Shown here piece by piece: positions 1,579 to 33,534 of a stretch of DNA of 44,970 nucleotides. The translations under genes and the position numbers were made by a program. Under the pieces are notes generated by a model that was given only the letters and a program-made list of their open reading frames with translations, did not search any database and was not told the origin of the DNA. Location: NCBI GenBank assembly GCA_900299205.1, contig OMIW01000091.1, positions 1-44,970 of the forward strand. Reading direction: 5' to 3'. The stretch comes from Pseudomonadota bacterium (GTDB lineage Bacteria; Bdellovibrionota_C; UBA2361; OMIW01). The first letter of the stretch is position 1, and each line of letters begins with the position of its first letter.

Positions 1579-1811
1579 GAAAACAACGGACGAATTGCGA
1601 TAATAAAACTCGATTAGCAAACCAAACACTGTGCGAGGGCTTTTACACCCGACCTTTTAAGTAGCTTCCCTCACATGCAATGTTTAAAGTAGAATAGTTG
1701 GAGTAGCAGAACAATCATTGAGCAAATTTCCGAGGATTCTTAGTGCGGTTAATCCGCAAGGTCGACCGCGATAGGTTCGCTTAATTCAATGAGAGTAACA
1801 TTTCTTCGCTC

Positions 1812-2447
1812 ATGGAAAACAAGACCTTATCCAACGTTTCAATTCCCCCCGCACTCTCAACTCCATTGATCATTGCGGGCATTATCGTCGCGTTGATCGT
1901 GCTGTTCAGCCTTCTTCCAAAGTTAGTAAGGCTTATTTCAAAGAATCGCCTCAGTCGAGAAGAAGAAGATGCCATCCTTCGGGAAGTAAACGAACTGGAT
2001 TCCCGGATTCACGAGTTTGAAAAAAGAGTGGAAACTTTGGAGGATTTGGCCGCAGGCTATTATGCGTCTTTGATGGGGGTGCCCGGTTTCACGGTGAGGC
2101 TACAAACTCTGGCAGGATATCGCGACAGGCTCATCCAGCTCCTCGTTGATGTCGAGGCGCTGATTGAACAGAATCAGTACGCTAAAACTAGGAAAGTTTT
2201 GCAGTTTCTTCACGGCAGTGCTCTGATATCTGCCGAGTCGATTGGAAGTATTGTTCTTGCGGACGAAGGGATAGACCTTAATGGTTGGGAAAAGAGGACG
2301 ACTCCGTTAGTAGTACAAAGCTGCGCGGATCTTGAGGCAGTCGCCGGCGAGATGGCAAAAATAAGGATGATAGACCCGAATCGAAAAAGAAAGCCCACTT
2401 TACTCCGACTTCAAGAGCTTCGTGACCGTATTCTTTTTCAGTCTTAG
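1812..2447 (+). CDS. hypothetical protein with N-terminal TM segment and coiled-coil
   Basis: 211 aa; TM segment PLIIAGIIVALIVLFSLLPKLV followed by a charged helical region. Confidence 0.65.
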   Translation: MENKTLSNVSIPPALSTPLIIAGIIVALIVLFSLLPKLVRLISKNRLSREEEDAILREVNELDSRIHEFEKRVETLEDLAAGYYASLMGVPGFTVRLQTLAGYRDRLIQLLVDVEALIEQNQYAKTRKVLQFLHGSALISAESIGSIVLADEGIDLNGWEKRTTPLVVQSCADLEAVAGEMAKIRMIDPNRKRKPTLLRLQELRDRILFQS

Positions 2448-2682
2448 GCGCCCCTCGTTTATTATAAGCCTTACCCGCTAAGGGGTGGTTTCCTTCGGGT
2501 GGACCCTAACCCGAGCTTCAACCTTTTTGTCCCATCTCAACTCAGCTTTTTGCTCTCTCCGATCACTTTGGCTTAGGTTTAACCTGAGCATACCTTGACA
2601 ATCACAACCCCCTTTGGATACTGCTTCTCCAAATTCAGCTCTCCATTAATTACCCCGTTTAAATCTTAGAATTTGCAAAAAC

Positions 2683-4356
2683 ATGGCACCAGAATTCGCT
2701 TTTAGCATGCAGCGTGTAGGTAAGACCTATCCGGGAGGAAAACAGGTCCTTCGGGATATCAGTCTCTCCTTTTTTTACGGTGCAAAGATCGGCGTCCTCG
2801 GCCTGAATGGCTCGGGGAAATCAACGCTTCTGAAGATTATCGCGGGGGTAGAGAAAGATTTTGTTGGGGATGTCCAGAGAACGGAAGGGCTCTCAATGGG
2901 GTATCTTCCTCAGGAGCCCTACCTTGATGAAACAAAAACGGTCCGAGAAGTCGTTGAGGAGGGGGTCGCCCCTCTAATGGCACTTAAAAAGAGGCTCGAC
3001 GAAATAAACGAAGCATTCTCGGATCCCGAAGCTGATATGGATGCGCTGATTGCAGAGCAGTCCTCAGTCCTTGAGGAATTTGAGTCGCAGAACGGTTGGG
3101 AGCTTGAACGCACCCTTGATGTCGCAATGGAGGCTCTCCGACTTCCCCCCTCTGATCAACCTGTACAATTTCTTAGTGGTGGTGAGCGGCGCCGGGTAGC
3201 CATCTGCCGGCTGCTCTTGCAGCGACCCGATATTCTGCTGCTGGATGAACCGACCAACCACCTCGATGCAGAGTCTGTCTGGTGGCTTGAGCGATTTCTC
3301 AATGACTATGAAGGAACTGTTATCGCGGTCACGCATGACAGATACTTCCTTGATAACTCAGCTCAATGGATCCTTGAGCTCGACCGAGGACATGGCATAC
3401 CCTGGAAGGGGAACTACTCCTCATGGTTAGAACAAAAGGAGAAAAGGCTTGCTCTCGAAGAGAAGCAGGAAACAAAGCGACAGCGAACGTTGGCTCGAGA
3501 GCTAGAATGGATTCGTATGAGCCCCAAGGCTCGTCATGCGAAGAGCAAGGCCCGTATAGCGAATTATGAGGCCCTCTTAGCGGAAGATACTCCTGAAAGA
3601 GTCGAGGAAATGGAGCTCTATATCCCTCCTGGGCCACGACTGGGGGGCAAAGTTATTGAGGCGACCTCGATATCTAAGGCATTTGGCGAGAAACTTCTCT
3701 TTGAGAACCTTTCTTTCACCATCCCACCTGGAGCAGTCGTAGGCATTATCGGAGGAAACGGAGCAGGGAAGACCACCCTTTTTCGTTTGATTACAGGACA
3801 GGACTCCCCGGATACTGGCTCGTTTGCCGTGGGAGATACGGTATCACTGGCCTATGTTGATCAATCCCGAGACACCCTGAATCCTAATCGAATGGTATGG
3901 GAAGAGATAGCTGATGGTCCGAATGAAACGGTCAAGCTAGGCTCCAAAGATGTGAATGCCCGCGCTTACTGCGCTCGATTCAACTTCACCGGCTCAGACC
4001 AACAAAAGAAAGTAGGGATTTTATCTGGTGGCGAGCGGAATAGGGTGCATCTCGCAAAACTCCTCAAAAACGGGGGAAATGTGCTCCTCCTCGACGAGCC
4101 CACGAACGATCTTGATGTAAACACCCTTCGTGCGCTTGAGGATGCCATTCTTTCATTTGCAGGTTGTGTACTCGTTATTAGTCACGATAGATGGTTCCTC
4201 GATAGAATCTGTACCCATATCATGGCGTTTGAGGGCAATAGCTCTGTGGTAATGATTGAGGGGAACTTCCAGGATTATGAGGAGGACAAAAAGCGCCGCC
4301 TTGGATCGGAGGCAACGCAACCGCATCGTATGCGATATAAGCCCATACATCATTAG
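2683..4356 (+). CDS. ettA: ABC-F ATPase, energy-dependent translational throttle EttA-like
   Basis: Tandem ABC domains: GLNGSGKST / LSGGERRRVAICRLL / LLLDEPTNHLD and GGNGAGKTT / LSGGERNRVHLAKLL / LLLDEPTNDLD; full EttA length (557 aa). Confidence 0.93.
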   Translation: MAPEFAFSMQRVGKTYPGGKQVLRDISLSFFYGAKIGVLGLNGSGKSTLLKIIAGVEKDFVGDVQRTEGLSMGYLPQEPYLDETKTVREVVEEGVAPLMALKKRLDEINEAFSDPEADMDALIAEQSSVLEEFESQNGWELERTLDVAMEALRLPPSDQPVQFLSGGERRRVAICRLLLQRPDILLLDEPTNHLDAESVWWLERFLNDYEGTVIAVTHDRYFLDNSAQWILELDRGHGIPWKGNYSSWLEQKEKRLALEEKQETKRQRTLARELEWIRMSPKARHAKSKARIANYEALLAEDTPERVEEMELYIPPGPRLGGKVIEATSISKAFGEKLLFENLSFTIPPGAVVGIIGGNGAGKTTLFRLITGQDSPDTGSFAVGDTVSLAYVDQSRDTLNPNRMVWEEIADGPNETVKLGSKDVNARAYCARFNFTGSDQQKKVGILSGGERNRVHLAKLLKNGGNVLLLDEPTNDLDVNTLRALEDAILSFAGCVLVISHDRWFLDRICTHIMAFEGNSSVVMIEGNFQDYEEDKKRRLGSEATQPHRMRYKPIHH

Positions 4357-4428: not shown

Positions 4429-5769
4429 TTATCTCGCCTGCTTAACTCTTTGACCCGGCCCTGAGGAGGTGGCTGCCTTCTTTTTTTTCACATCACCCTC
4501 TGCTGAAACAACCCGAGGATAGCAGCGGGCTATAGTAAACGGTCGCTGCGATAGATCCTCTCCACGATGAAAAAGAGCTGCTCGATGAAGCTGCGAGTTT
4601 GAGATATATACCTCTCCCTTTTGCCCCCTAGCAAAGGAGGTTGGCCATGAAAAATCCTCTCCTTTAGTCAGGGGGTGATAACCACCGTCCTTATCCACAG
4701 CCCCTAACCCGCTATTGTTCACGTCAGAAACCAAGACAAAGTCAGAGCCCAAAGCGAGCAAACCTTGAGATGGCGGCTTATCCCCTTTGCGGGTCACTCG
4801 CTCACCTATCTGCGCAGAAGAAAGTTCGCGATCACGAAGGGCCTCAAGCGGCACCTGAAATACCGAACGACCATTCGCCGCGCCGAAAAGGAGATTGGTG
4901 CCCTCAGAATCAGCCATGAGACCGGCAATCCCCAAGCTTGGTCGGACCATCGAACCTTTTGCATCTGGGGCAAGAAGCGGTTCGCCCCGAACCACAAAAT
5001 CACCTCCGTCCGCATTTAGTGAATAGTGATCCTCGAGGGCTCGCCAAGACTCACCCGTTTTAATATCAACCGAAATAATCGCTGCTTCCGCCTTACCTAT
5101 AAAATCATGGCGCCCCTGGTCGGCTATGAAAGCGAAATCTCCCTTTTCATCAATGGCAACGCTGACAAGGAGGGAGTTTGGTTTTGTAACAGGTGCGGGA
5201 AGGTAGAGAATCCGGTGAAGGGCATCGGTTTGGAGGTTCCAGCCGACTAATTTCGGTTGGAGCTCGGGAAGATGTCCCGAGTCAAGTATCCAGAGAATCC
5301 CCCGATTATCAACGGCGAGAGAGAGGACTTTGGCGAGCTTTTCTGAGGGAAGATGCGAATCACTTGCCCAGCGAGAGGGAAACGGTCGGAAACTTCCATC
5401 CGGGAGGATTTCTCGAACACCAGAGTCCTCATTACGATCCCGAAGATGATTGGCTAGACTCACAAACAGCCTCTCATCCTTACTGATTGCAATACCAAAC
5501 GGTCGAAGCTCTAGAGAGGCGACGATATCACACGGCGAGTTCGGAAGAGGACGTTGGATCGGAAAGCGATATTCCCCAGAGGGAGTTATTCGATCAAGAG
5601 TGAGGATATTTTTTTCTTCCAGTTGGTTGGCCGTGCCGGTCGGAGTCCCTCCGCCCTTGGGCTTTGCCCAACAACACTGGCAATTTAATTGCGCAACCAA
5701 AACCATCAACCCGAGGAAAGAACGAAGCCACGTTCTTGTGGGAACCAGATAATTCGGACAGGAGGCCAT
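4429..5769 (-). CDS. secreted Yellow/major-royal-jelly-protein-like beta-propeller protein
   Basis: Signal-like hydrophobic N-terminus; LWILDSGHLPELQPKLVGWNLQTDALHRILYLPAPV...VAIDEKGDFAFIADQG...AAIISVDIKTGESWRALEDHYS matches the Yellow/MRJP signature pattern. Confidence 0.72.
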   Translation of the reverse strand: MASCPNYLVPTRTWLRSFLGLMVLVAQLNCQCCWAKPKGGGTPTGTANQLEEKNILTLDRITPSGEYRFPIQRPLPNSPCDIVASLELRPFGIAISKDERLFVSLANHLRDRNEDSGVREILPDGSFRPFPSRWASDSHLPSEKLAKVLSLAVDNRGILWILDSGHLPELQPKLVGWNLQTDALHRILYLPAPVTKPNSLLVSVAIDEKGDFAFIADQGRHDFIGKAEAAIISVDIKTGESWRALEDHYSLNADGGDFVVRGEPLLAPDAKGSMVRPSLGIAGLMADSEGTNLLFGAANGRSVFQVPLEALRDRELSSAQIGERVTRKGDKPPSQGLLALGSDFVLVSDVNNSGLGAVDKDGGYHPLTKGEDFSWPTSFARGQKGEVYISNSQLHRAALFHRGEDLSQRPFTIARCYPRVVSAEGDVKKKKAATSSGPGQRVKQAR

Positions 5770-22754: not shown

Positions 22755-23750
22755 CTATTCAGCTATCAGCTCTACGAGGCGGCTCAATTCCTCCTCGGAA
22801 AAATAGTCAATCTCAATTCGACCTTTTCCACCGGCTGACGAGCGTATCGCCACCCTTGTCCCAAGGTGTCCTCGGAGCTGATCCTCGATGTGAGAAAATG
22901 GATTATCAGGAGTATTCGCCCCGTCGGCCATCAAGGACCGCTTTAGCGGCTTCTTGCTCTCCAGGATAATGACTCTGGCGACTATTGCCTCAACCGCTCG
23001 AACTGATAGACCTTCTTCAACGATCTTTCTTCCCAAATTCACCTGTGCCGCCGGCTCTTTGATGGTCAAAAGGGCCTTGGCATGCCCCATAGAGATTCGC
23101 GAATCCTCCAACATTGCCAAAACTTCGGGGGCGAGTTTGAGCAACCGCAAGTAGTTGGCGATACTCACTCGATTTTTTCCCACGGCCTCCGCCACCTGCT
23201 CCTGGGTTAGCTTAAATTCTCGAATCAGACGGTCATATGCGTACGCTTCCTCCACTGGAGTCAGCTGTTGGCGTTGGACATTTTCAACGAGAGCAATTTG
23301 CAGAAGCTCATATTCAGATAGTTCGCGAATTATCGCTGGAATCTCGCTTAAGCCGGCCCTCTGAGCCGCTCGCCACCGACGCTCCCCGGCTACAATTTCA
23401 AAACTTGAACCACGTGGTCGAACAAGTATTGGCTGGAGAATCCCCAGATTTTTAATTGATGCCGCAAGCTCATCAAGCTCTGATTCTGCGAAGAATTGGC
23501 GGGGCTGAGATGGATTGCCCTCCACCGAGCCTATCGGAAGAAACTTGACACTCCGAGCGCCCTCTTCGACCTCCGCACTTACCCCAGCATCTCCTAATGA
23601 CTCGACAGCGACCAATGGAGAGCTCACTCGAGCAGCGATGGATTCCTCTACAATGCGAGCGTTTGAACCATCCACCTGTAACGACACCGCCTCGGGCGAG
23701 ATCAGTGCGCTCAACCCCCTCCCCAACCCTCGCTTCTCCACTTTCATCAC
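22755..23750 (-). CDS. parB: chromosome partitioning protein ParB
   Basis: KRGLGRGLSALIS; NPSQPRQFF..ELDELAASIKNLGILQPILVRP; VAGERRWRAAQRAGL; ENVQRQQLTPVEEAYAY; HTH with QEQVAEAVGKNRVSIANYLRLLKL. Confidence 0.97.
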   Translation of the reverse strand: MMKVEKRGLGRGLSALISPEAVSLQVDGSNARIVEESIAARVSSPLVAVESLGDAGVSAEVEEGARSVKFLPIGSVEGNPSQPRQFFAESELDELAASIKNLGILQPILVRPRGSSFEIVAGERRWRAAQRAGLSEIPAIIRELSEYELLQIALVENVQRQQLTPVEEAYAYDRLIREFKLTQEQVAEAVGKNRVSIANYLRLLKLAPEVLAMLEDSRISMGHAKALLTIKEPAAQVNLGRKIVEEGLSVRAVEAIVARVIILESKKPLKRSLMADGANTPDNPFSHIEDQLRGHLGTRVAIRSSAGGKGRIEIDYFSEEELSRLVELIAE

Positions 23751-23789: not shown

Positions 23790-23805
23790 TGTTCCACGTG
23801 GAACA
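23790..23805. other. parS site 1 (TGTTCCACGTGGAACA)
   Basis: Perfect 16-bp palindrome of the ParB-binding parS type, in the parA-parB intergenic region. Confidence 0.93.
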
Positions 23806-23828: not shown

Positions 23829-24641
23829 TTACTCATTACCGACCGCCACCAGGCCAGAATTGCAGTTCGATGCCCACCCCATACGAGCAACTACTTCATC
23901 GGCTAGGATGTGATATGCTTTCCCCCCCGCAGAATGAGGATCATACCGACAAATCGGAAGACCATGACTAGGGCACTCGGACAGTCGTATATTTCTGGGT
24001 ATTCGCGTATTGAACATCTTGCCAGGAAAGAATTTGGCCGCCTCCGCCTCGACTTGGCCTGAAAGGTTAGTCCTCGCATCGAACATGGTCATCACAACCC
24101 CAAAAAGCTGGAGAGCTGGATTGAACGTTGCTTGAACGAATTGAATCGTCTTTGTCAGGGATGAGAGCCCTTCAAGAGCGTAATACTCAGCCTGGAGCGG
24201 GACCAAAACTCCTTGTGCAGCACCAAGAGCATTTAAGGTTAAGAGACCAGAGGACGGGGGACAGTCGATGAGGATTACGTCGAAGCTCGCCTGCACCCCC
24301 TTCAGCTCCGAGGTTAAAACAAGCTCTCTTCCATGCCGTTTTCCAACCTCTAGCTCAAGACTGACAAGGTCGCGCGAGGCGGGCACGACAAACAGACCCT
24401 CCATCGACGGACTCTCTATAATAATATCGGAAAGGGTCTTCTTGCCGAAGAACACATCATAGAGATCACTTCCCTCAGGAGGGAGATCGATACGGAGACC
24501 ACTTGAGGTACTGGCCTGAGGATCCATATCCACGAGAAGCACCCTTAATGATCGGAGAGCCAACTCCGCCGCGAGACTTACGGCGGTTGTGGTTTTCCCG
24601 ACCCCCCCCTTCTGATTGGCTATTGCAATGGTAATTGCCAC
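23829..24641 (-). CDS. parA: chromosome partitioning ATPase ParA/Soj
   Basis: IAIANQKGGVGKTTTAVSLAAELA deviant Walker A; VDMDPQASTSSGL; VILIDCPPSSGLLTLNAL. Confidence 0.97.
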   Translation of the reverse strand: MAITIAIANQKGGVGKTTTAVSLAAELALRSLRVLLVDMDPQASTSSGLRIDLPPEGSDLYDVFFGKKTLSDIIIESPSMEGLFVVPASRDLVSLELEVGKRHGRELVLTSELKGVQASFDVILIDCPPSSGLLTLNALGAAQGVLVPLQAEYYALEGLSSLTKTIQFVQATFNPALQLFGVVMTMFDARTNLSGQVEAEAAKFFPGKMFNTRIPRNIRLSECPSHGLPICRYDPHSAGGKAYHILADEVVARMGWASNCNSGLVAVGNE

Positions 24642-24765: not shown

Positions 24766-24781
24766 CGTTCCACGTGGAACA
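24766..24781. other. parS site 2 (CGTTCCACGTGGAACA)
   Basis: Perfect 14-bp core palindrome GTTCCACGTGGAAC upstream of parA; one outer base differs from site 1. Confidence 0.88.
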
Positions 24782-24809: not shown

Positions 24810-25997
24810 CTACCCCGCTCCCCGCGAAGAAGCAACCATCCCCCTTGAAACCCCCGCCATAACCTCCAAAAGTCGTTTTATTTGATCGCTGTCGTGCCGA
24901 ACAGAGATTACAAATCGGATAACGGATGTCCGAGACTGTCTCAGAACGGTTTCATCGAAATCACACCAAAATCCACCCTGGAGAAGAACCTCCCAGATTC
25001 GGTAGGCTTCTATCGCTGGGGGAAGAATAATCGATACGATAGGGAATCCACCCACAGACCGAGTATCAAATCCAAGCTCAGCCAGTCCCATCTCAAGCTG
25101 CCGTCGAAGGAGCTGTAGTCGCTCCGTCTCACCCGAAAGACCTCGCAGCAGGTCTATTGCAACGGGTATGCTCGCGGCCGTCCCCACGGAGAGCGGGGCC
25201 TCCTTGTGAACAGCTGGTGAACGGAGCCGAATCAGCTCGCAGAGATGTCCAGAACCGGCGATAACCCCCCCGCTGACTCCAAGTGCGGGCCCTACTCCTC
25301 CCACAATCGCAGCCGGGACTCCTCGAAGGCCGAGCAAATCGACGACTCCAGCGCATTGAGCACCCAGCAGACCAAGAGAAAATGTTTCATCAACAACAAC
25401 TCTATCGCCACGCTCCCTCGCTACTCTTTCGACCTCAGCCAGAGGTGCCATTACTCCAAGTTCAGGGTGGAGACCCTGGACCCAGAAAAGACGCTCTCCG
25501 GTCGATACCGGCGATACATGTCGTCGGGACAGCTGATCCAGGTAGCCATTTCGATACGTCACCACCGGAATACCTCCGACGCACGCTGCATCGAGTATTG
25601 GAGCGGCCCCCAACGTCTCATCGACGAACAAGATGTCCTGATCGGCAAGCGTGTTCAATACAAACGAAAAGATAGCTTGATTTCGGGAGCTCAAAAGAAG
25701 GGCGTCATCACAACCAAGAAAGCTTGCCAACGCCGATTCAGCCGCTCTGTGGTACCTCGTCCACCCCCCTCGGCTCAAGGATAGTCGACCTGCACCGCGC
25801 CCTGAAAACTCTTGATGTATTTTCCTGAAATCTCGACGACTCGAGAGGTCGAATACGTCCCAATTTGCGAAGTCGATGAGTCGCCGATTATCAAATTTAA
25901 CGAACGGGGTACTATCCTCCTCGATAGGCAAGAGCCGCCTCATGTCTCGACTGCGCTTCAAAAGTTGCAGTTCAACTCGGAGCCTCTCATCCCACAT
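24810..25997 (-). CDS. alpha-oxoamine synthase (AONS/KBL/SPT)-fold protein, probable pseudoenzyme
   Basis: Colinear with BioF: GAGRLSLSRGGWTRYHRAAESALASFLGCDDALLLSS...VVVDETFSLGLLG...IVGGVGPALGVSGGVI. PLP lysine position is proline. Confidence 0.8.
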   Translation of the reverse strand: MWDERLRVELQLLKRSRDMRRLLPIEEDSTPFVKFDNRRLIDFANWDVFDLSSRRDFRKIHQEFSGRGAGRLSLSRGGWTRYHRAAESALASFLGCDDALLLSSRNQAIFSFVLNTLADQDILFVDETLGAAPILDAACVGGIPVVTYRNGYLDQLSRRHVSPVSTGERLFWVQGLHPELGVMAPLAEVERVARERGDRVVVDETFSLGLLGAQCAGVVDLLGLRGVPAAIVGGVGPALGVSGGVIAGSGHLCELIRLRSPAVHKEAPLSVGTAASIPVAIDLLRGLSGETERLQLLRRQLEMGLAELGFDTRSVGGFPIVSIILPPAIEAYRIWEVLLQGGFWCDFDETVLRQSRTSVIRFVISVRHDSDQIKRLLEVMAGVSRGMVASSRGAG

Positions 25998-26106: not shown

Positions 26107-27915
26107 ATGAACGGAGACATTTTTTCGTTTCAACATCCGTTATCCTACGGCTCTTTCAACGCAGTTCCCCTCACCGCTGTCCGATGCCCGCGAAAAACTA
26201 AAACCTCGGAGAAACCTCGGGTGACAATCCCAACAATCCCTCGAATCAATAGAGCGATGAAAAGCCTCCGTCGAGGTCGGGAGATTGTGCGAGTCCTCCT
26301 CAAGCATGGATTTGCCGAGACGCTCAGTGACTCAGGCCTGGCAAAATGGGCGAAAGATACCCTCGAGATGGATCTATTTTCCGTCTCACCCGAGGAGCAA
26401 AAACTATCCCGAAATCAAAGGATTCGGAGAGTTATCGAGGATCTAGGTCCCACCTTCATAAAAATCGGCCAGATTCTCAGCACTCGTCCCGACCTTCTTC
26501 CAATCGACCTAGTTGACGAGCTAAAAAAACTCCAGAGCGATGTCGCACCGGTGCCTTTTGAAAAAATAAATGATGCCCTCCTCCAGGAATTCGGGGATCG
26601 ATTATCCACCCTCTTCACATTCATAGATCCCAAGCCCCTGGGTTCTGCCTCCCTCGCTCAGACCCATCGCGCTCGCCTCAATTCTGGAGAAACCGTTGTA
26701 CTAAAGATCCTACGCCCGGGGATCCGGTCACAACTTGAGGCGGATATCGCTATCTTGAGAGAGATCGCACGCCTGACCGAATCACAATTTTCAAATCTCG
26801 GATTCAGTCCCCTCGATGTATGCGCAGAATTTACTGCCGAGCTGGAGCGAGAAACCGACTACTTTCGAGAGGCGACCTCCACCGAACGACTATCGGCTCT
26901 CTTTCTATCTGACCCAGGGGTTCGTTTTCCGAGAGTTTACCGTCACGCATCGACCTCAAATGTGCTTGCCCTTGAGGAGGTTGAAGGAATACTGATATCT
27001 CATTCCGACCCCTCCTCTATCGATCCAAAAATCCGTCGGAAGGCCGTAGAAAACGCTACGCGAGCGGTATTTAAGCAGTGTCTTGAATACGGTTTTTTTC
27101 ACGCAGATCCTCATCCAGGCAACATCTTCATTCTTCCTGATGGTGCCATTTGCTTCGTTGATTGTGGTATGACGGGCCATCTTGAAGAACGAACCTCTCA
27201 GGACATAGCTCGACTCTGCAGCGGTATAGTGACGTCTGACCTCGATGAAATAATCGAGGTTGTACGTTCATTAACCTCGGCAGACCCCGGAGTAATGCGA
27301 AGTAGATCTTTTCGGAACGATCTGTGGCAATTGGTGAGTCAGTTCCAGCACGGAACCCTCGAGAGCCTCAACATCGGTGCTTTACTATCTGAGTTTTTCT
27401 CACTACTCCGCCGATATCATATTCGCTGTCCTAGCGATCTTGTTTATCTGATAAAGGCTCTCACCACTATTGAAGCCGTGGCTGCATCACTCGACCCTTC
27501 GTTTGACCTCATTGATTACGTCTATCCGTACCTTGAACAATTGATTCGGAAACGGTACGGCCCTGGCGCAATAGCTCGTCGAACACGACGCTCCATGGCC
27601 GGATATTTTGAGCTTCTCGAGGATCTTCCGAAACATCTTCAAAATCTTATCGACCAACTTCTTAATGATCGCTTTCAAGTGCACCTCGAACATCGGGGGC
27701 TACATGACCTCACCGATACACTCGTTAGTGTGGGCAGAAAGCTCTCTTCAGCGGTCACCCTTGCAGCTCTTCTCGTTGGCTCCTCTATACTCATACTGGC
27801 AGATAACATGAGGGGAGCCGGCCCCTCTATTGCGAGTGCAATTGGAGCTATCGGTTACGCCATCAGCTCTGCGGCTGCACTGTCAAGCATGATCGCGTTC
27901 TGGCGAGGTCGCTAG
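26107..27915 (+). CDS. UbiB/ABC1/AarF-family kinase-like protein
   Basis: FIKIGQILSTRPDLLP (KxGQ), GSASLAQTHRARLNSGETVVLKILRPGI, FFHADPHPGNIFILPDGAICFVDCGMTG; two C-terminal TM segments. True start may be ATG 26257. Confidence 0.92.
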   Translation: MNGDIFSFQHPLSYGSFNAVPLTAVRCPRKTKTSEKPRVTIPTIPRINRAMKSLRRGREIVRVLLKHGFAETLSDSGLAKWAKDTLEMDLFSVSPEEQKLSRNQRIRRVIEDLGPTFIKIGQILSTRPDLLPIDLVDELKKLQSDVAPVPFEKINDALLQEFGDRLSTLFTFIDPKPLGSASLAQTHRARLNSGETVVLKILRPGIRSQLEADIAILREIARLTESQFSNLGFSPLDVCAEFTAELERETDYFREATSTERLSALFLSDPGVRFPRVYRHASTSNVLALEEVEGILISHSDPSSIDPKIRRKAVENATRAVFKQCLEYGFFHADPHPGNIFILPDGAICFVDCGMTGHLEERTSQDIARLCSGIVTSDLDEIIEVVRSLTSADPGVMRSRSFRNDLWQLVSQFQHGTLESLNIGALLSEFFSLLRRYHIRCPSDLVYLIKALTTIEAVAASLDPSFDLIDYVYPYLEQLIRKRYGPGAIARRTRRSMAGYFELLEDLPKHLQNLIDQLLNDRFQVHLEHRGLHDLTDTLVSVGRKLSSAVTLAALLVGSSILILADNMRGAGPSIASAIGAIGYAISSAAALSSMIAFWRGR

Positions 27916-27960: not shown

Positions 27961-28614
27961 TCAGTTCGGTGGCTGAGGGTCAAGACGCTCTGCTGCCCGC
28001 CGGAGGGCACTTGCAAGCAATGATCCGGTCTTCGAGGCTGCCTGCATCGCGACCTCCTGGGGAATCTCCATAGCCGCCTGGAGAAGCGATTGGACGAGAG
28101 GCATCACCTTCATCGCAATACGGCCGAGATGCATCCGAATCTCTGAGACCTCAAACCGAGCCTCTTGGCTTAACTGTCCCACATACTTGGATACAATTTC
28201 ACCGAATAGCTGCGTCAAGCTAAAAAGCTCCGCCGAGAAATCCCGAATCTCCTGCCCTGCGACTTGATCGCCCCGCCCCATTGCCTCCCTCACTGTGTAC
28301 TGGAAAGCCGTCAGGACAGAGACCATTACCTCCTCAAGATCTCCGAGCACAGCCTCAAGTCTCTCTCGCTGTTCACCCGGCGCAACCGCCACCACCCCCT
28401 TCATTGAACCTTCAAAAACTGCCAAAAGCACCCTCGGAAGTGCGGTTAAGGCTCCTCCTCCCTCACAAACCGCACGATGTATCACCCCTGTGATCCGTTT
28501 TGCAATATCCTTACCATCGCGCACTATCGAAGATACTTCGTCACGGATAGCCGAATCTCCTCCTTCGGCTCCCCTCTCTGTTCCCTCGCCTGTTTTATCT
28601 TGGGTCATAACCAC
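27961..28614 (-). CDS. hypothetical helical protein (217 aa)
   Basis: Intact ORF directly downstream of prfB on the same strand; no family recognised with confidence. Confidence 0.6.
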   Translation of the reverse strand: MVMTQDKTGEGTERGAEGGDSAIRDEVSSIVRDGKDIAKRITGVIHRAVCEGGGALTALPRVLLAVFEGSMKGVVAVAPGEQRERLEAVLGDLEEVMVSVLTAFQYTVREAMGRGDQVAGQEIRDFSAELFSLTQLFGEIVSKYVGQLSQEARFEVSEIRMHLGRIAMKVMPLVQSLLQAAMEIPQEVAMQAASKTGSLLASALRRAAERLDPQPPN

Positions 28615-28634: not shown

Positions 28635-29781
28635 CTAAGACTTTTCACTCATAAGATAAGCCTCTATGAAGCGGTCTATCTCTCCATCAAGAACTCCTTC
28701 CACATCTGAAGTCTCGAATTGGGTTCTCAGGTCCTTCACCATCCGATAAGGCTGCAAAACATAAGACCGAACCTGACTGCCAAAATCTATCGATTGGCGG
28801 GCTCCTTTAACTTGCTCAATTTTCTGCTCCTGAATCAGCCGTTCGCGCTCAAAGAGCTTCGCCTTGAGCACCTTGAGCGCTCGGGCTTTATTCTTGTGCT
28901 GCGACCGCTCGTTCTGACAGGCGACAACGATCCCCGTCGGAAGGTGAGTAATTCGCACCGCTGAGTCTGTTTTATTAACATGCTGGCCACCCGCACCGGA
29001 GGAACGATAAGTATCAATTTTTAGGTCTGTTTCAGAGATTTCGATTTCAATCTCCTCCTCAATATCCGGAGCCACTGACAGCGAAGCAAATGATGTGTGA
29101 CGGCGAGCGTTCGAGTCAAATGGCGAAATCCGTACAAGGCGGTGTACTCCAGCCTCAGCGCGGAGGTGCCCATAGGCGTAGGGCCCCCTCACAAGAAGGG
29201 TTGCACTCTTGATGCCTGCCACTTCTCCAGCCTGAAAATCGAGTTCCTCGACGGAGAACCCCTTCCGCTCGGCCCATCGTGTGTACATCCGAAGGAGCAT
29301 CAGGGCCCAATCTTGCGCCTCTGTGCCTCCAGAGCCTCCGTTAAACTCAATGATCGCGTCGGACTTATCGAACTCCCCCCGCATCATACGCCGGAACTCA
29401 AGGGCCCCCACCTCGTGCTCAAGCCTGGCGAGCAGCTGGATGGTCTCTCTCTTGAGCTCCTCGTCATCCGCTTCAAGAGCGAGCTCCAGAGATGCCTGAA
29501 TATCGCCGAAGAGTGCCTCTGCCCCGACAACGACCCCGATATCCTCCTTCAAGCCTGCGATCTCTCGCATAACTTCCCGCGCCCGGTCCTGATCGTCCCA
29601 CAATGACGACCCACGAGCTGACCCAGCTTGGGACGATTCCCCCTCAACCTGAGCCTCGAGCTCCCTCATCCGCTCCCGCTTTCCATCGAGGTCAAAGATA
29701 CCCCCTCAGAGCCTGCATTCGGCCCTGTAGGTTCAAAAGTTTCGCTCGCACATCTGACGCTTCAAAAATATTAGCCACCAT
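28635..29781 (-). CDS. prfB: peptide chain release factor 2, expressed via +1 programmed frameshift
   Basis: SPFDSNARRHTSFASLSV and SSGAGGQHVNKTDSAVRITHLPTGI. The short upstream ORF from ATG 29781 (MVANIFEASDVRAKLLNLQGRMQALRGYL-UGA) joins the main frame by +1 shift at CTTTGAC. Confidence 0.95.
29691..29706 (-). promoter_or_regulatory. prfB programmed +1 frameshift signal AGGGGGTATCTTTGAC
   Basis: Internal SD-like AGGGGG, slippery CTT and in-frame UGA followed by C, as in the canonical RF2 autoregulatory site. Confidence 0.95.
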
Positions 29782-30078: not shown

Positions 30079-30546
30079 ATGAAAAAAACCCATATTCTTC
30101 GACAAAACGGTGCCACGTTGCTCGAGTTGCTTGGGGTCCTGTCTATCCTGAGTCTGGCTTTTACAATTGGAGGCGTCCACCTTGCCTCTATTCAGAAAAG
30201 CTTCCGAAATGGCTCAATAAAGCAGCTTATTCGAGATGACCTCCTACTAGCCGAATCCAAATCCATAGCCGAAAGGGCTCGAGTAATATTTCGTGAGACG
30301 CCCAACGGCTATCAGGTCGGCTTTGACTATCCACCTTACTCTGGAACAGGCCAGATCGACACCGTAAGTCCACTCGATATTCGTCGGACCGTGTCATCAG
30401 AAGTAAAAATTTCAATTGAGCCCCTCGGCCGGATTATTTTTGATTCGAGGGGAAATGTAATCGATGGAACCACCGGGGACCGGACGACCGGATTGATTCG
30501 GGTTACATCGTCCGACAAACCGTTATTGTCTGAGATTGTAGGATGA
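30079..30546 (+). CDS. type IV minor prepilin, FimT/GspH-like
   Basis: Prepilin peptidase motif QNG|ATLLELLGVLSILSLAF with Glu+5; cluster context. Confidence 0.82.
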   Translation: MKKTHILRQNGATLLELLGVLSILSLAFTIGGVHLASIQKSFRNGSIKQLIRDDLLLAESKSIAERARVIFRETPNGYQVGFDYPPYSGTGQIDTVSPLDIRRTVSSEVKISIEPLGRIIFDSRGNVIDGTTGDRTTGLIRVTSSDKPLLSEIVG

Positions 30547-31013
30547 AACGAGAGATTCTTTCGGCTAACAAACCCCTTAAGACGAACCAGAGGATTAGTC
30601 CTATCACAGTTGAGGAATCCATCAGGTCACCAAAGTTTAAACAGAAGGGATTTTCGTTGTTTGAGCTGCTCATATCGATTGGACTTCTTGGCACTATCTC
30701 AATTGGACTCGCCAGGAGTTTTGCCACCGCTTCGGCGATAATAAAAGGTTCGGACCTCTCGGCAATCCAGAGTCAGCTTGCTTTGACAAAATTGGAGGAA
30801 ATAGCCGGAAGAAATCCCTCGACTATTTCAACGGGTGAAGAGATTGAAGGTGAAATTCACCGAGGTGGAATGTCATTCAAGCGGGTAACTCTGATTACAG
30901 CGCTAAGCGATACCGCATTGAAAGTTTCTGTCTCTGTTGCGGCGAATTATCCCGGTTTTAAAGAAAAACCTATTGTCTATGACGGTGTGTTTAATCAGTC
31001 AGGTTTGAGATGA
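30543..31013 (+). CDS. type IV minor prepilin, PilV-like
   Basis: KG|FSLFELLISIGLLGTISIGLARS; ATGA overlap with upstream gene. Confidence 0.8.
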   Translation: MKREILSANKPLKTNQRISPITVEESIRSPKFKQKGFSLFELLISIGLLGTISIGLARSFATASAIIKGSDLSAIQSQLALTKLEEIAGRNPSTISTGEEIEGEIHRGGMSFKRVTLITALSDTALKVSVSVAANYPGFKEKPIVYDGVFNQSGLR

Positions 31014-31909
31014 AGAAGAAAGGGCTTCCAAGATTTGTTCACTTAAAAAACTTCTCACTTCGTGAGAGAGGAGAAACATTTGTCGGTTTTCTAGTGGCCA
31101 CTATGATCGGTGCTCTTGTCATCGCCGGCTCAGCCTCGAGCTTCACATTTTCCATGAGAACTCTCTCTGATCGCCTCATAATATCAGATGCGAATAACCA
31201 CGCGCGAAAAATAGTGCATCTGATTGCCTCCGACCTTCGAGGAATCGGCTCCGGAATGCCGCTCATGACTCCCCGTTTTGACCCTGCAGACCCCGCCATC
31301 GGAGGTGCCGGTCTTCCGATATTAACTGACTCCAGTAGAGACCAGGTGCGTTATCGTTTAAACGATTATGGCCGTTTCAGCAGCCTTAACGCCACATTCA
31401 ACCCCGCCACTGAATCGGCAATCTCCGTTCTGTCAACCGAGAGCTTCCACCCTGGTGCGATAATTTACATTTCAAATATCACAAGTGAATTCTCCCAAAG
31501 TTCTACGATAGGCGGCGCTCGGGCGAGAGTGGTAAACGTGGGGCCCACAACCGTTTCGGTTGATGAAGTAAAATCGGGAGGAGGGACCATTTTCAATCCG
31601 GGAAGCCTCGTCGAAGCGGTTTCCGAGGTATCGATTTCCTGCCCCCATTCAGCCGGTATTTCCCGGACTTCAGGTGATTATTCCCAAAGTCTATCAAAGC
31701 AGGGTAGCTGTAACTTTGTTTATCTTGATTCTTTCGGAGGAGAGATTGAGCCTCCTCTGACCATCGAATCAATAAGATCCTCTTTGACGAGCATTCGTGT
31801 CTCGGTCTCCGCGTCAGGCCGCCGACCGCTCAAGAGTGGCACTACCTATACCGCCCAAGCGTCCGAAACCGTTGCTCTTCGTAATCTTATTCTCGCGAGG
31901 AACGCATGA
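31010..31909 (+). CDS. type IV minor prepilin, PilW-like (no Glu+5)
   Basis: ERG|ETFVGFLVATMIGALVIAGSA hydrophobic N-terminal helix; RKIVHLIASDLRGIGSGM; ATGA overlap. Confidence 0.75.
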   Translation: MKKKGLPRFVHLKNFSLRERGETFVGFLVATMIGALVIAGSASSFTFSMRTLSDRLIISDANNHARKIVHLIASDLRGIGSGMPLMTPRFDPADPAIGGAGLPILTDSSRDQVRYRLNDYGRFSSLNATFNPATESAISVLSTESFHPGAIIYISNITSEFSQSSTIGGARARVVNVGPTTVSVDEVKSGGGTIFNPGSLVEAVSEVSISCPHSAGISRTSGDYSQSLSKQGSCNFVYLDSFGGEIEPPLTIESIRSSLTSIRVSVSASGRRPLKSGTTYTAQASETVALRNLILARNA

Positions 31910-33534
31910 ACTCATTTCGTATCCCATCTTTGAAGAAAATGGGAAAGGCTCGCCTCAGTCACCGTCGAGTCTCCGAAAGGGGATATATTCTGGTTTCCGT
32001 TCTTGTTCTTTTTTCCCTTGCTCTTTCCCTTACCATGATATTGCTCAATGCCTCCGCTGTTGGTCGTGGCTCGATGGCCTCTGTTAGGATGGCGGAGAGA
32101 GAATACTTGGACGCTGAGGCCACCGCTCAAGAGTCTTTCCAGTGGCTCAACGCAACTTCTCGGAAGTGGGGTTCTCTCTTCAGTGGCGGCGTTTTTACAA
32201 AGACATTTGTTCGTAATCCGACACCCTCCATCGGATCCAATGACTCCGGCTCCTTCAAAGTCCCGACAAGGGTAAAGATAGCTGGAACCAACAACTCGGT
32301 GATTCTGCACTCAGACTCGTCAACATTCGGAATGACCGCGTTCCCCCAATCGAACGATCTCATTTCAGGTGAATTGTATCAGCCTATCGATAGATTTAAG
32401 GAACAGGCTTTCGCACGAGGAAAAGTGCGGGTTACTCTCATCGATGCGATTCCTCTTGATCCCTCGAATCTCAATTCAACGGAATACTCACCTGTATTCC
32501 GTATTGACGCGATGAAAGCCGCGGACAGGGGAGGTCATGTTTCCATGATTGTAACCGGAAAAATGCAGACTGCTCCGGGCTCAGGATTTGTGGGAAAAAC
32601 CTACGTTGAGATGAGACAGCCGTGCGACTCCTACCAATCATCAACTTCGATTACTAATTTTTCAACTCAGGCCAGACGGGCAAATTGCCCTATTGCTTCC
32701 GAGGGATCGATCGCCATTCACTCGACCACGACAATTTTTGGTTCGGTAACAACCAAATCTACACTTGCTTCGGGTAGCCCTTGGGGTGGCCCGATCTGCG
32801 CGTCTTTCGCATCTGGATGCCCTGTGAAGGGAACAATATGCACCGGTTCGACGTGCCAAACACCGGCCTTAAACCTTAGCCCCTCATCATTTTCAGCAGC
32901 ATGTCCGACGACCGCACCCGACCTCACAATCCTCGGTGGTGGGTCCGAGGTGACTGCACAGACGATCGAGTCAATTCGAGAGCCTTCAAGCTCGACAAAT
33001 ACTCCCCCGGGAACTCCGGCGAAAACCTTTCGCAACAACTGTTGGCAAAATCTAAAGATTGGAACAAACGGATGGGCTCGATTTCGCTCTGGGCTAAATG
33101 GCTCAGCGCCAGTCGCCTTCTACATTAAAAACTTGGAGATTGCGAAGAACGCACGGGTTCTGTTTGACGACAATGGAGGCAAACAAATTACTTTGTATGT
33201 CGACCGAATAGTGGGGGACTCCTACAATGGAAATCAGATTGGGGGATTAAAGAGCGATGCTTCTGGATCGATGGTTGCTCCAAATATGCTCAAGCTGAAT
33301 TACTGGGGGTCATATCCTCTCACTCTCAATGGAAATGCAACGATGAACTCCTTTGTGGTTGCTCCTCATGCGGCGGTGACTGTGTCCGGAAACTTTACCT
33401 TCCACGGCGGGATTATGGCTGACAGGCTAGTCGCGAATGGGTCGGGTGCTCTCCATTATGATGAGACCGGAGGGAATGCTGTTAATGTAGACATGCAGCT
33501 AAGAATCCGGTCCATTCAGGAGTATTTTAGGTAG
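31906..33534 (+). CDS. PilX-like minor pilin with large Ser/Thr/Gly-rich passenger
   Basis: ERG|YILVSVLVLFSLALSLTMILLN, AEREYLDAEATAQESFQWL; Cys-containing low-complexity C-terminal region; ATGA overlap. Confidence 0.72.
   Translation: MNSFRIPSLKKMGKARLSHRRVSERGYILVSVLVLFSLALSLTMILLNASAVGRGSMASVRMAEREYLDAEATAQESFQWLNATSRKWGSLFSGGVFTKTFVRNPTPSIGSNDSGSFKVPTRVKIAGTNNSVILHSDSSTFGMTAFPQSNDLISGELYQPIDRFKEQAFARGKVRVTLIDAIPLDPSNLNSTEYSPVFRIDAMKAADRGGHVSMIVTGKMQTAPGSGFVGKTYVEMRQPCDSYQSSTSITNFSTQARRANCPIASEGSIAIHSTTTIFGSVTTKSTLASGSPWGGPICASFASGCPVKGTICTGSTCQTPALNLSPSSFSAACPTTAPDLTILGGGSEVTAQTIESIREPSSSTNTPPGTPAKTFRNNCWQNLKIGTNGWARFRSGLNGSAPVAFYIKNLEIAKNARVLFDDNGGKQITLYVDRIVGDSYNGNQIGGLKSDASGSMVAPNMLKLNYWGSYPLTLNGNATMNSFVVAPHAAVTVSGNFTFHGGIMADRLVANGSGALHYDETGGNAVNVDMQLRIRSIQEYFR

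Follow-up and report, generated by a model that had tools for sequence, protein, structure and literature searches.

The gene analyzed here lies on the reverse strand of a 44,970-nucleotide stretch of bacterial DNA (hereafter the window), between prfB and the chromosome-segregation genes parA and parB (Table 1). Its reading frame runs from ATG to stop with no interruption, and its GC content by codon position (0.67/0.46/0.51) is in line with that of the neighboring genes, which bears out the long intact ORF of the original prediction. The product has the fold of the alpha-oxoamine synthases (AOS), with no predicted membrane parts. As had also been proposed, it sits immediately upstream of parA with one near-perfect parS site in between, and a perfect parS follows between parA and parB. 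On its other side, two genes part it from prfB in the window. These are a divergent ubiB-like gene, an arrangement not found in the relatives read, and an ORF for a DUF6781 protein, which occupies the place where relatives carry the lysine-less AOS gene. The start of prfB (29691-29781, reverse strand) contains the RF2 +1 frameshift signal AGGGGG TAT CTT TGA C, which we take to be the classical RF2 autoregulatory site. The true start of prfB is probably the ATG at 29781, with a +1 frameshift at CTTTGAC (29697-29691), rather than 29669.

Elsewhere in the window, we noted a protein with a Major royal jelly protein/Yellow domain, which is uncommon in bacteria, and a set of four overlapping ORFs, the second of which has a type-IV-pilin-like N-terminal methylation motif. 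These ORFs may form an operon of a divergent pseudopilin or secretion type.

Table 1. Features of the window, by position, strand, and supporting observation
Feature	Position	Strand	Observation
Major royal jelly protein/Yellow domain	4429..5769	-	Protein with this domain; PF03022, 70.9 bits
parB	22755..23750	-	Pfam ParB_N, HTH_ParB, ParB_C
parS, perfect	23790..23805		Between parA and parB
parA	23829..24641	-	ParA-type sequence by reading; orthologs adjoin the lysine-less gene in most carriers
parS-like site	24766..24781	.	One mismatch to TGTTCCACGTGGAACA; between the lysine-less gene and parA; 0 expected in shuffles
Lysine-less AOS-fold gene	24810..25997	-	Intact ORF, 395 aa; AOS fold, catalytic residues replaced
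P237, codon CCC	25287..25289	-	Aligns with the lysine that forms the Schiff base with PLP (BioF K236, SPT K265)
UbiB/ABC1 kinase-like gene	26107..27915	+	PF03109, 207.6 bits
DUF6781 protein	27961..28614	-	PF20572, 33.2 bits; 217 aa; directly downstream of prfB
prfB (RF2)	28635..29669	-	Immediate upstream neighbor of the lysine-less gene in most relatives
Four overlapping ORFs	30079..33534	+	155, 156, 299, and 542 aa; no clear family matches

An AOS fold without the PLP lysine

The strong phmmer matches of the protein are exclusively AOS enzymes, with bacterial serine palmitoyltransferase (SPT) at 2e-26 and BioF at 4e-24. It matches the Pfam family Aminotran_1_2 with 42.7 bits and the NCBIfam models for SPT, BioF, and Kbl with 100-131 bits, far under their cut-offs (426-670). 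An AlphaFold model, for which the window protein and 12 relatives were the input, gave the AOS fold with a mean pLDDT of 81.6 and a pTM of 0.80. When this model was searched with Foldseek, it matched Kbl, SPT, BioF, and ALAS over most or all of its length (TM 0.81-0.89, E about 1e-26 to 1e-30), the TM of 0.89 being that of Sphingomonas SPT (PDB 2jg2). By phmmer, the AlphaFold model, and Foldseek, the protein is a full-length fold-type-I member of the AOS superfamily, and its predicted colinearity with BioF extends over 380 residues.

We compared the active-site residues with those of E. coli K-12 BioF (PDB 1bs0), whose sequence was taken from the MG1655 genome record. The Schiff-base lysine K236 is replaced by P237, the PLP-stacking H133 by A131, and the second histidine, H207, by F206. 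Further replacements are N47 by W46, S135 by P133, S179 by P178, E175 by Q, and T233 by G. In contrast, D204, which in BioF pairs with the pyridine nitrogen of PLP, is kept as D203, and the substrate-carboxylate arginine R361 is kept as R361. Every particular of the original residue reading that was tested proved correct: the proline encoded by CCC, the alanine of LGAAP in the stacking-histidine position, the phenylalanine for the histidine of DDAH, and the retained aspartate of VVVDE. The stretch DETLGAAP carries a one-residue insertion relative to the orthologs (DE-LxQxP), which leaves the conclusion unaffected. Bacterial SPT (Sphingomonas, PDB 2jg2; Sphingobacterium, PDB 3a2b) is the best sequence match of both the window protein and its family. 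The whole-length fold, the aspartate, and the carboxylate arginine are common to the two, whereas Lys265, the stacking histidine, the second histidine, the interface residue Asn100, and the phosphate-cup residues of SPT are replaced in the family.

The PLP lysine is established as essential to the covalent PLP chemistry of AOS enzymes, and if that holds here, such chemistry would be excluded. Since the lysine, the stacking histidine, the second histidine, and the phosphate-cup residues are all missing, PLP-dependent acyl condensation would not be possible. Noncovalent binding of PLP also looks improbable because the stacking histidine and phosphate-cup residues are gone.

A lysine-less family in one bacterial order

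A search of relatives returned matches at 25-28% identity within the same order, and an ortholog is present in 15 of the 29 genomes examined from the order, or about half. When all 29 were searched with a family profile, 14 members scored above 277 bits and lysine-bearing paralogs at most 231 bits. The 15th member, in genome G002, is a shortened protein of 328 aa directly after prfB. This copy (contig L126, 1922-2905, forward strand) is strongly shortened and divergent, overlaps the end of prfB, and has glutamate for the aspartate of the VVDE motif. In most lineages across the order, the lysine-less ORFs are full-length.

Lysine is absent from the K236 site in every ortholog whose sequence covers it, including all the aligned orthologs of G004, G006, G007, G008, G010, G015, G016, G018, G020, G023, and G027. 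Contig ends truncate the orthologs of G005 (before the lysine column) and G022 (after it). Of the 12 family members having the column, 0 carry lysine, as against 45 of the 45 lysine-bearing comparison proteins. The two observations that would have refuted the original prediction, lysine conserved at the site or present in close relatives, were thus looked for and not made. The proline itself is not conserved: the site shows P, T, I, L, Y, or F, and what is constant is that it is not lysine. The columns of K236, H133, and H207 are each invariant in the 45 lysine-bearing proteins and hold five to six different residues among the 12 members, and the equivalents of both histidines are gone throughout the family. 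A lysine conserved at any other position of the family alignment was not found either, which rules out displacement of the lysine to a nearby position. A recent point mutation or sequencing error is ruled out as well, since the relatives likewise have no lysine. Other positions are strictly kept. D203, R361, and H368 are each present in 12 of 12 members, and family-specific conservation is seen for tryptophan at the BioF N47 site (10/11) and for Q107, P133, and A137 (11/12 each). The polar family-specific positions Q107, Q340/R341, and R259 are kept in most members.

The nearest named relatives of the source bacterium are Oligoflexia and deltaproteobacterial assemblies. Family records carry mutually discordant NCBI labels (Oligoflexia bacterium SSF28, Deltaproteobacteria metagenome-assembled genomes, and one Candidatus Dadabacteria metagenome-assembled genome), and the carriers among the genomes examined all belong to a single order, in a phylum represented by 46 genomes. 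In a scan of 383 genomes, most of them outside the order, lysine was present in all the best-scoring matches read, and no further lysine-less member was found among these.

Gene neighborhood in relatives

In most carriers, the gene order is prfB, lysine-less AOS gene, parA, parB. Most carriers in which the distance to prfB can be measured have -26 to 66 nt between the two genes (exceptions are 233 nt in G006 and 2.5 kb in G020). Toward parA, a stretch of 88-596 nt containing one to three parS sites intervenes, G002 with 3.5 kb being the exception. This shared site supports orthology independently of any tree, and the layout suggests that the gene belongs to a prfB operon, with parAB behind it under separate control. 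Since roughly half the related genomes have the same lysine-less version, as a rule next to prfB, it is a preserved, presumably noncatalytic protein and not a sequencing accident.

The arrangement has exceptions. In G006, the next gene encodes a PrsW-like protease and parA is not adjacent, and in G008 neither prfB nor parA is close to the gene. In G024 and G026 (genus g11, nested beside G018), prfB, parS, parA, and parB are kept, and no tblastn remnant of the lysine-less gene was found. The prfB-parA intergenic stretches of these two genomes (contig L124 of G024, 1625-3079; contig L125 of G026, 1496-2183) contain clusters of perfect parS 14-mers. The parA neighborhood is therefore real but dispensable, and an essential part in ParABS is ruled out.

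Tree and selection

In a tree with 45 lysine-bearing AOS proteins, including E. coli BioF, the 12 members and the G002 copy form a single clade with a support of 100/100, which is recovered in 100% of 200 bootstrap trees. Taking out the active-site columns together with the G002 and SPT-like rows left it intact, as did additionally dropping the rows of the window and E. coli. This rules out a tree artifact from shared active-site loss or long branches. Presence of the gene changes five times on a prfB+parA tree, which by itself is silent on gain versus loss. Because the gene position is shared, one origin with several losses is the simpler reading. Judged from these sequences, the lysine-less family is an ancient, order-specific, vertically inherited single clade of AOS-fold pseudoenzymes.

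The gene evolves fast, with 21-32% identity between the window copy and its orthologs compared to 57-67% for parA. Purifying selection is nonetheless clear in the sister genus g11, where the closest pair (G020/G022) has a dN/dS of 0.133/1.375, or about 0.1, by NG86 and 0.11/2.37, or 0.05, by YN00. These estimates apply to g11, the window copy having no close relative from which to calculate one. Together with the full-length ORFs, they rule out a pseudogene for the family. The window copy, on a branch of 3.16, and the G002 copy evolve faster than all other members. The window copy has also lost some family-conserved residues (R74, now L, and R261, now P), so it may be decaying in its own genome.

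Lysine-bearing AOS enzymes in carriers

A search for an active paralog in the genome of the window (a draft, 90% complete) found a single lysine-bearing AOS enzyme. This is BioF (TIGR00858, 328.8 bits; cut-off 426), and its gene overlaps a BioD-like gene for a dethiobiotin-synthetase-like (AAA_26) protein. SPT was not found in this draft. By comparison, central members of the lysine-less family score 144-216 bits with the same TIGR00858 model. Among the other carriers, G002 (95% complete) has Kbl and a third AOS class and no BioF, G005 has an SPT-like protein as its only lysine-bearing AOS, and G008 has Kbl only. One or more additional matches to the AOS family occur in each of the 15 carriers, although in G016 they consist of fragments only. 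These draft genomes point to no enzyme as an obligatory catalytic partner, given that no lysine-bearing AOS class was found in all of the carriers.

Discussion

We think it rather probable, judging from sequence, that the lysine-less protein is an AOS-fold pseudoenzyme acting as a noncatalytic dimeric binding or regulatory protein. The fold-type-I architecture of BioF, Kbl, and SPT has been kept while the Schiff-base lysine, both histidines, and the phosphate-cup residues were lost, and AOS-like dimerization is probably retained. In place of the interface asparagine (BioF N47, which appears to correspond to Sphingomonas SPT N100 from our reading of the NxYLG motif), the family has a conserved tryptophan, which probably packs in the vacated pocket. 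The dimer may sense an amino or keto acid via the retained aspartate/arginine pair. As for its ancestry, the gene probably came down as the second member of an autoregulated operon that begins with prfB (RF2) and lies upstream of parAB. This noncatalytic dimeric role is favored because there are positions conserved in the family but not in the enzymes, and because the tryptophan fits a filled, inert pocket.

The original prediction had spoken of an SPTLC1-like pseudoenzyme that might act as a partner subunit. What stands is a long-conserved AOS fold without the PLP lysine, which SPTLC1/LCB1, the noncatalytic subunit of eukaryotic SPT, likewise has; the kinship is not supported by the profile scores. 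The family profile scores 219 bits with bacterial SPT and 205-210 bits with Kbl and BioF, compared to 167 for plant LCB1, 135 for human SPT1, and 125 for yeast SPT1. Since it scores lower with LCB1 than with the bacterial enzymes, the lysine was likely lost independently, and the likeness would lie in loss of the same lysine rather than in a demonstrated common origin. As to the partner role, the protein is presumably noncatalytic, in agreement with the prediction, but no lysine-bearing AOS class occurs in every carrier and no sphingolipid context of the gene was seen.

A role like that of LCB1, as one half of a heterodimer that shapes or regulates the active site of the cell's lysine-bearing AOS enzyme (BioF in the window genome), ranks second to the noncatalytic dimeric binding or regulatory protein, and we consider it unlikely. 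LCB1, with the same fold and the same lost lysine, works in this way (PMC3794620). In AOS enzymes, the active site is located where the subunits meet, and each of the 15 carriers has a further AOS-family match, as described above. However, the enzymes differ from carrier to carrier, non-carriers possess the same ones, and in none of the loci read is an AOS partner gene adjacent. Moreover, Sphingomonas SPT N100 lies near the subunit interface, contacts the active-site lysine, and corresponds to C133 of human LCB1 (PMC3794620). At this position, LCB1-type subunits have asparagine or cysteine and the lysine-less family has a conserved tryptophan, and C133W in human LCB1 is a disease mutation. A broader version is somewhat less likely again. 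The family would be a bacterial counterpart of LCB1 that arose independently of eukaryotes, an order-wide AOS pseudosubunit setting the activity of whichever lysine-bearing AOS is present, with expression tied to RF2 via the shared operon.

We assign a lower probability still to a new enzyme, in which the AOS scaffold would have been rebuilt, with lysine-free use of PLP or no PLP, around an active site of Asp203, Arg361, His368, and family-specific residues. The invariance of these three residues and the retention of the polar positions Q107, Q340/R341, and R259 are consistent with it. However, the three are also common in lysine-bearing AOS enzymes and may be structural, and the rest of the pocket (the former K, H, H, and T positions) varies within the family, which would be atypical of an enzyme active site. 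An accessory factor of ParABS chromosome segregation, which would account for the place between prfB and parA, is quite improbable. Where the contig extends to parA, the gene does adjoin it in most carriers, with parS sites separating the two, but the short gap is to prfB, and the exceptions in G006, G008, G024, and G026 argue against such a role. Last, that the gene is what remains of a BioF-like gene in decay, its frame merely still open, fits the fast evolution, the two long branches, and the patchy presence, but it is highly improbable and for the family as a whole already largely refuted by the full-length ORFs in most lineages, the dN/dS in g11, the normal codon-position GC, and the conserved family-specific motifs.

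In the open literature (most subscription journals lay outside our coverage), no description of a bacterial lysine-less AOS protein or family was found. The closest bacterial parallel found is Rv3778c of M. tuberculosis, a fold-type-I PLP protein that also lacks the lysine and is judged noncatalytic but is a relative of cysteine desulfurases, not of AOS enzymes (PMC12910592).

These findings also show that it would be a mistake to label such genes "BioF," "SPT," or "glycine C-acetyltransferase." LCB1/SPTLC1 is the textbook case of an AOS protein retained after the loss of its lysine. The bacterial family has lost the same lysine, with the fold kept under purifying selection and a signature of its own, tryptophan for the interface asparagine, and it is probably an independent test of why the AOS fold is kept once catalysis is gone.
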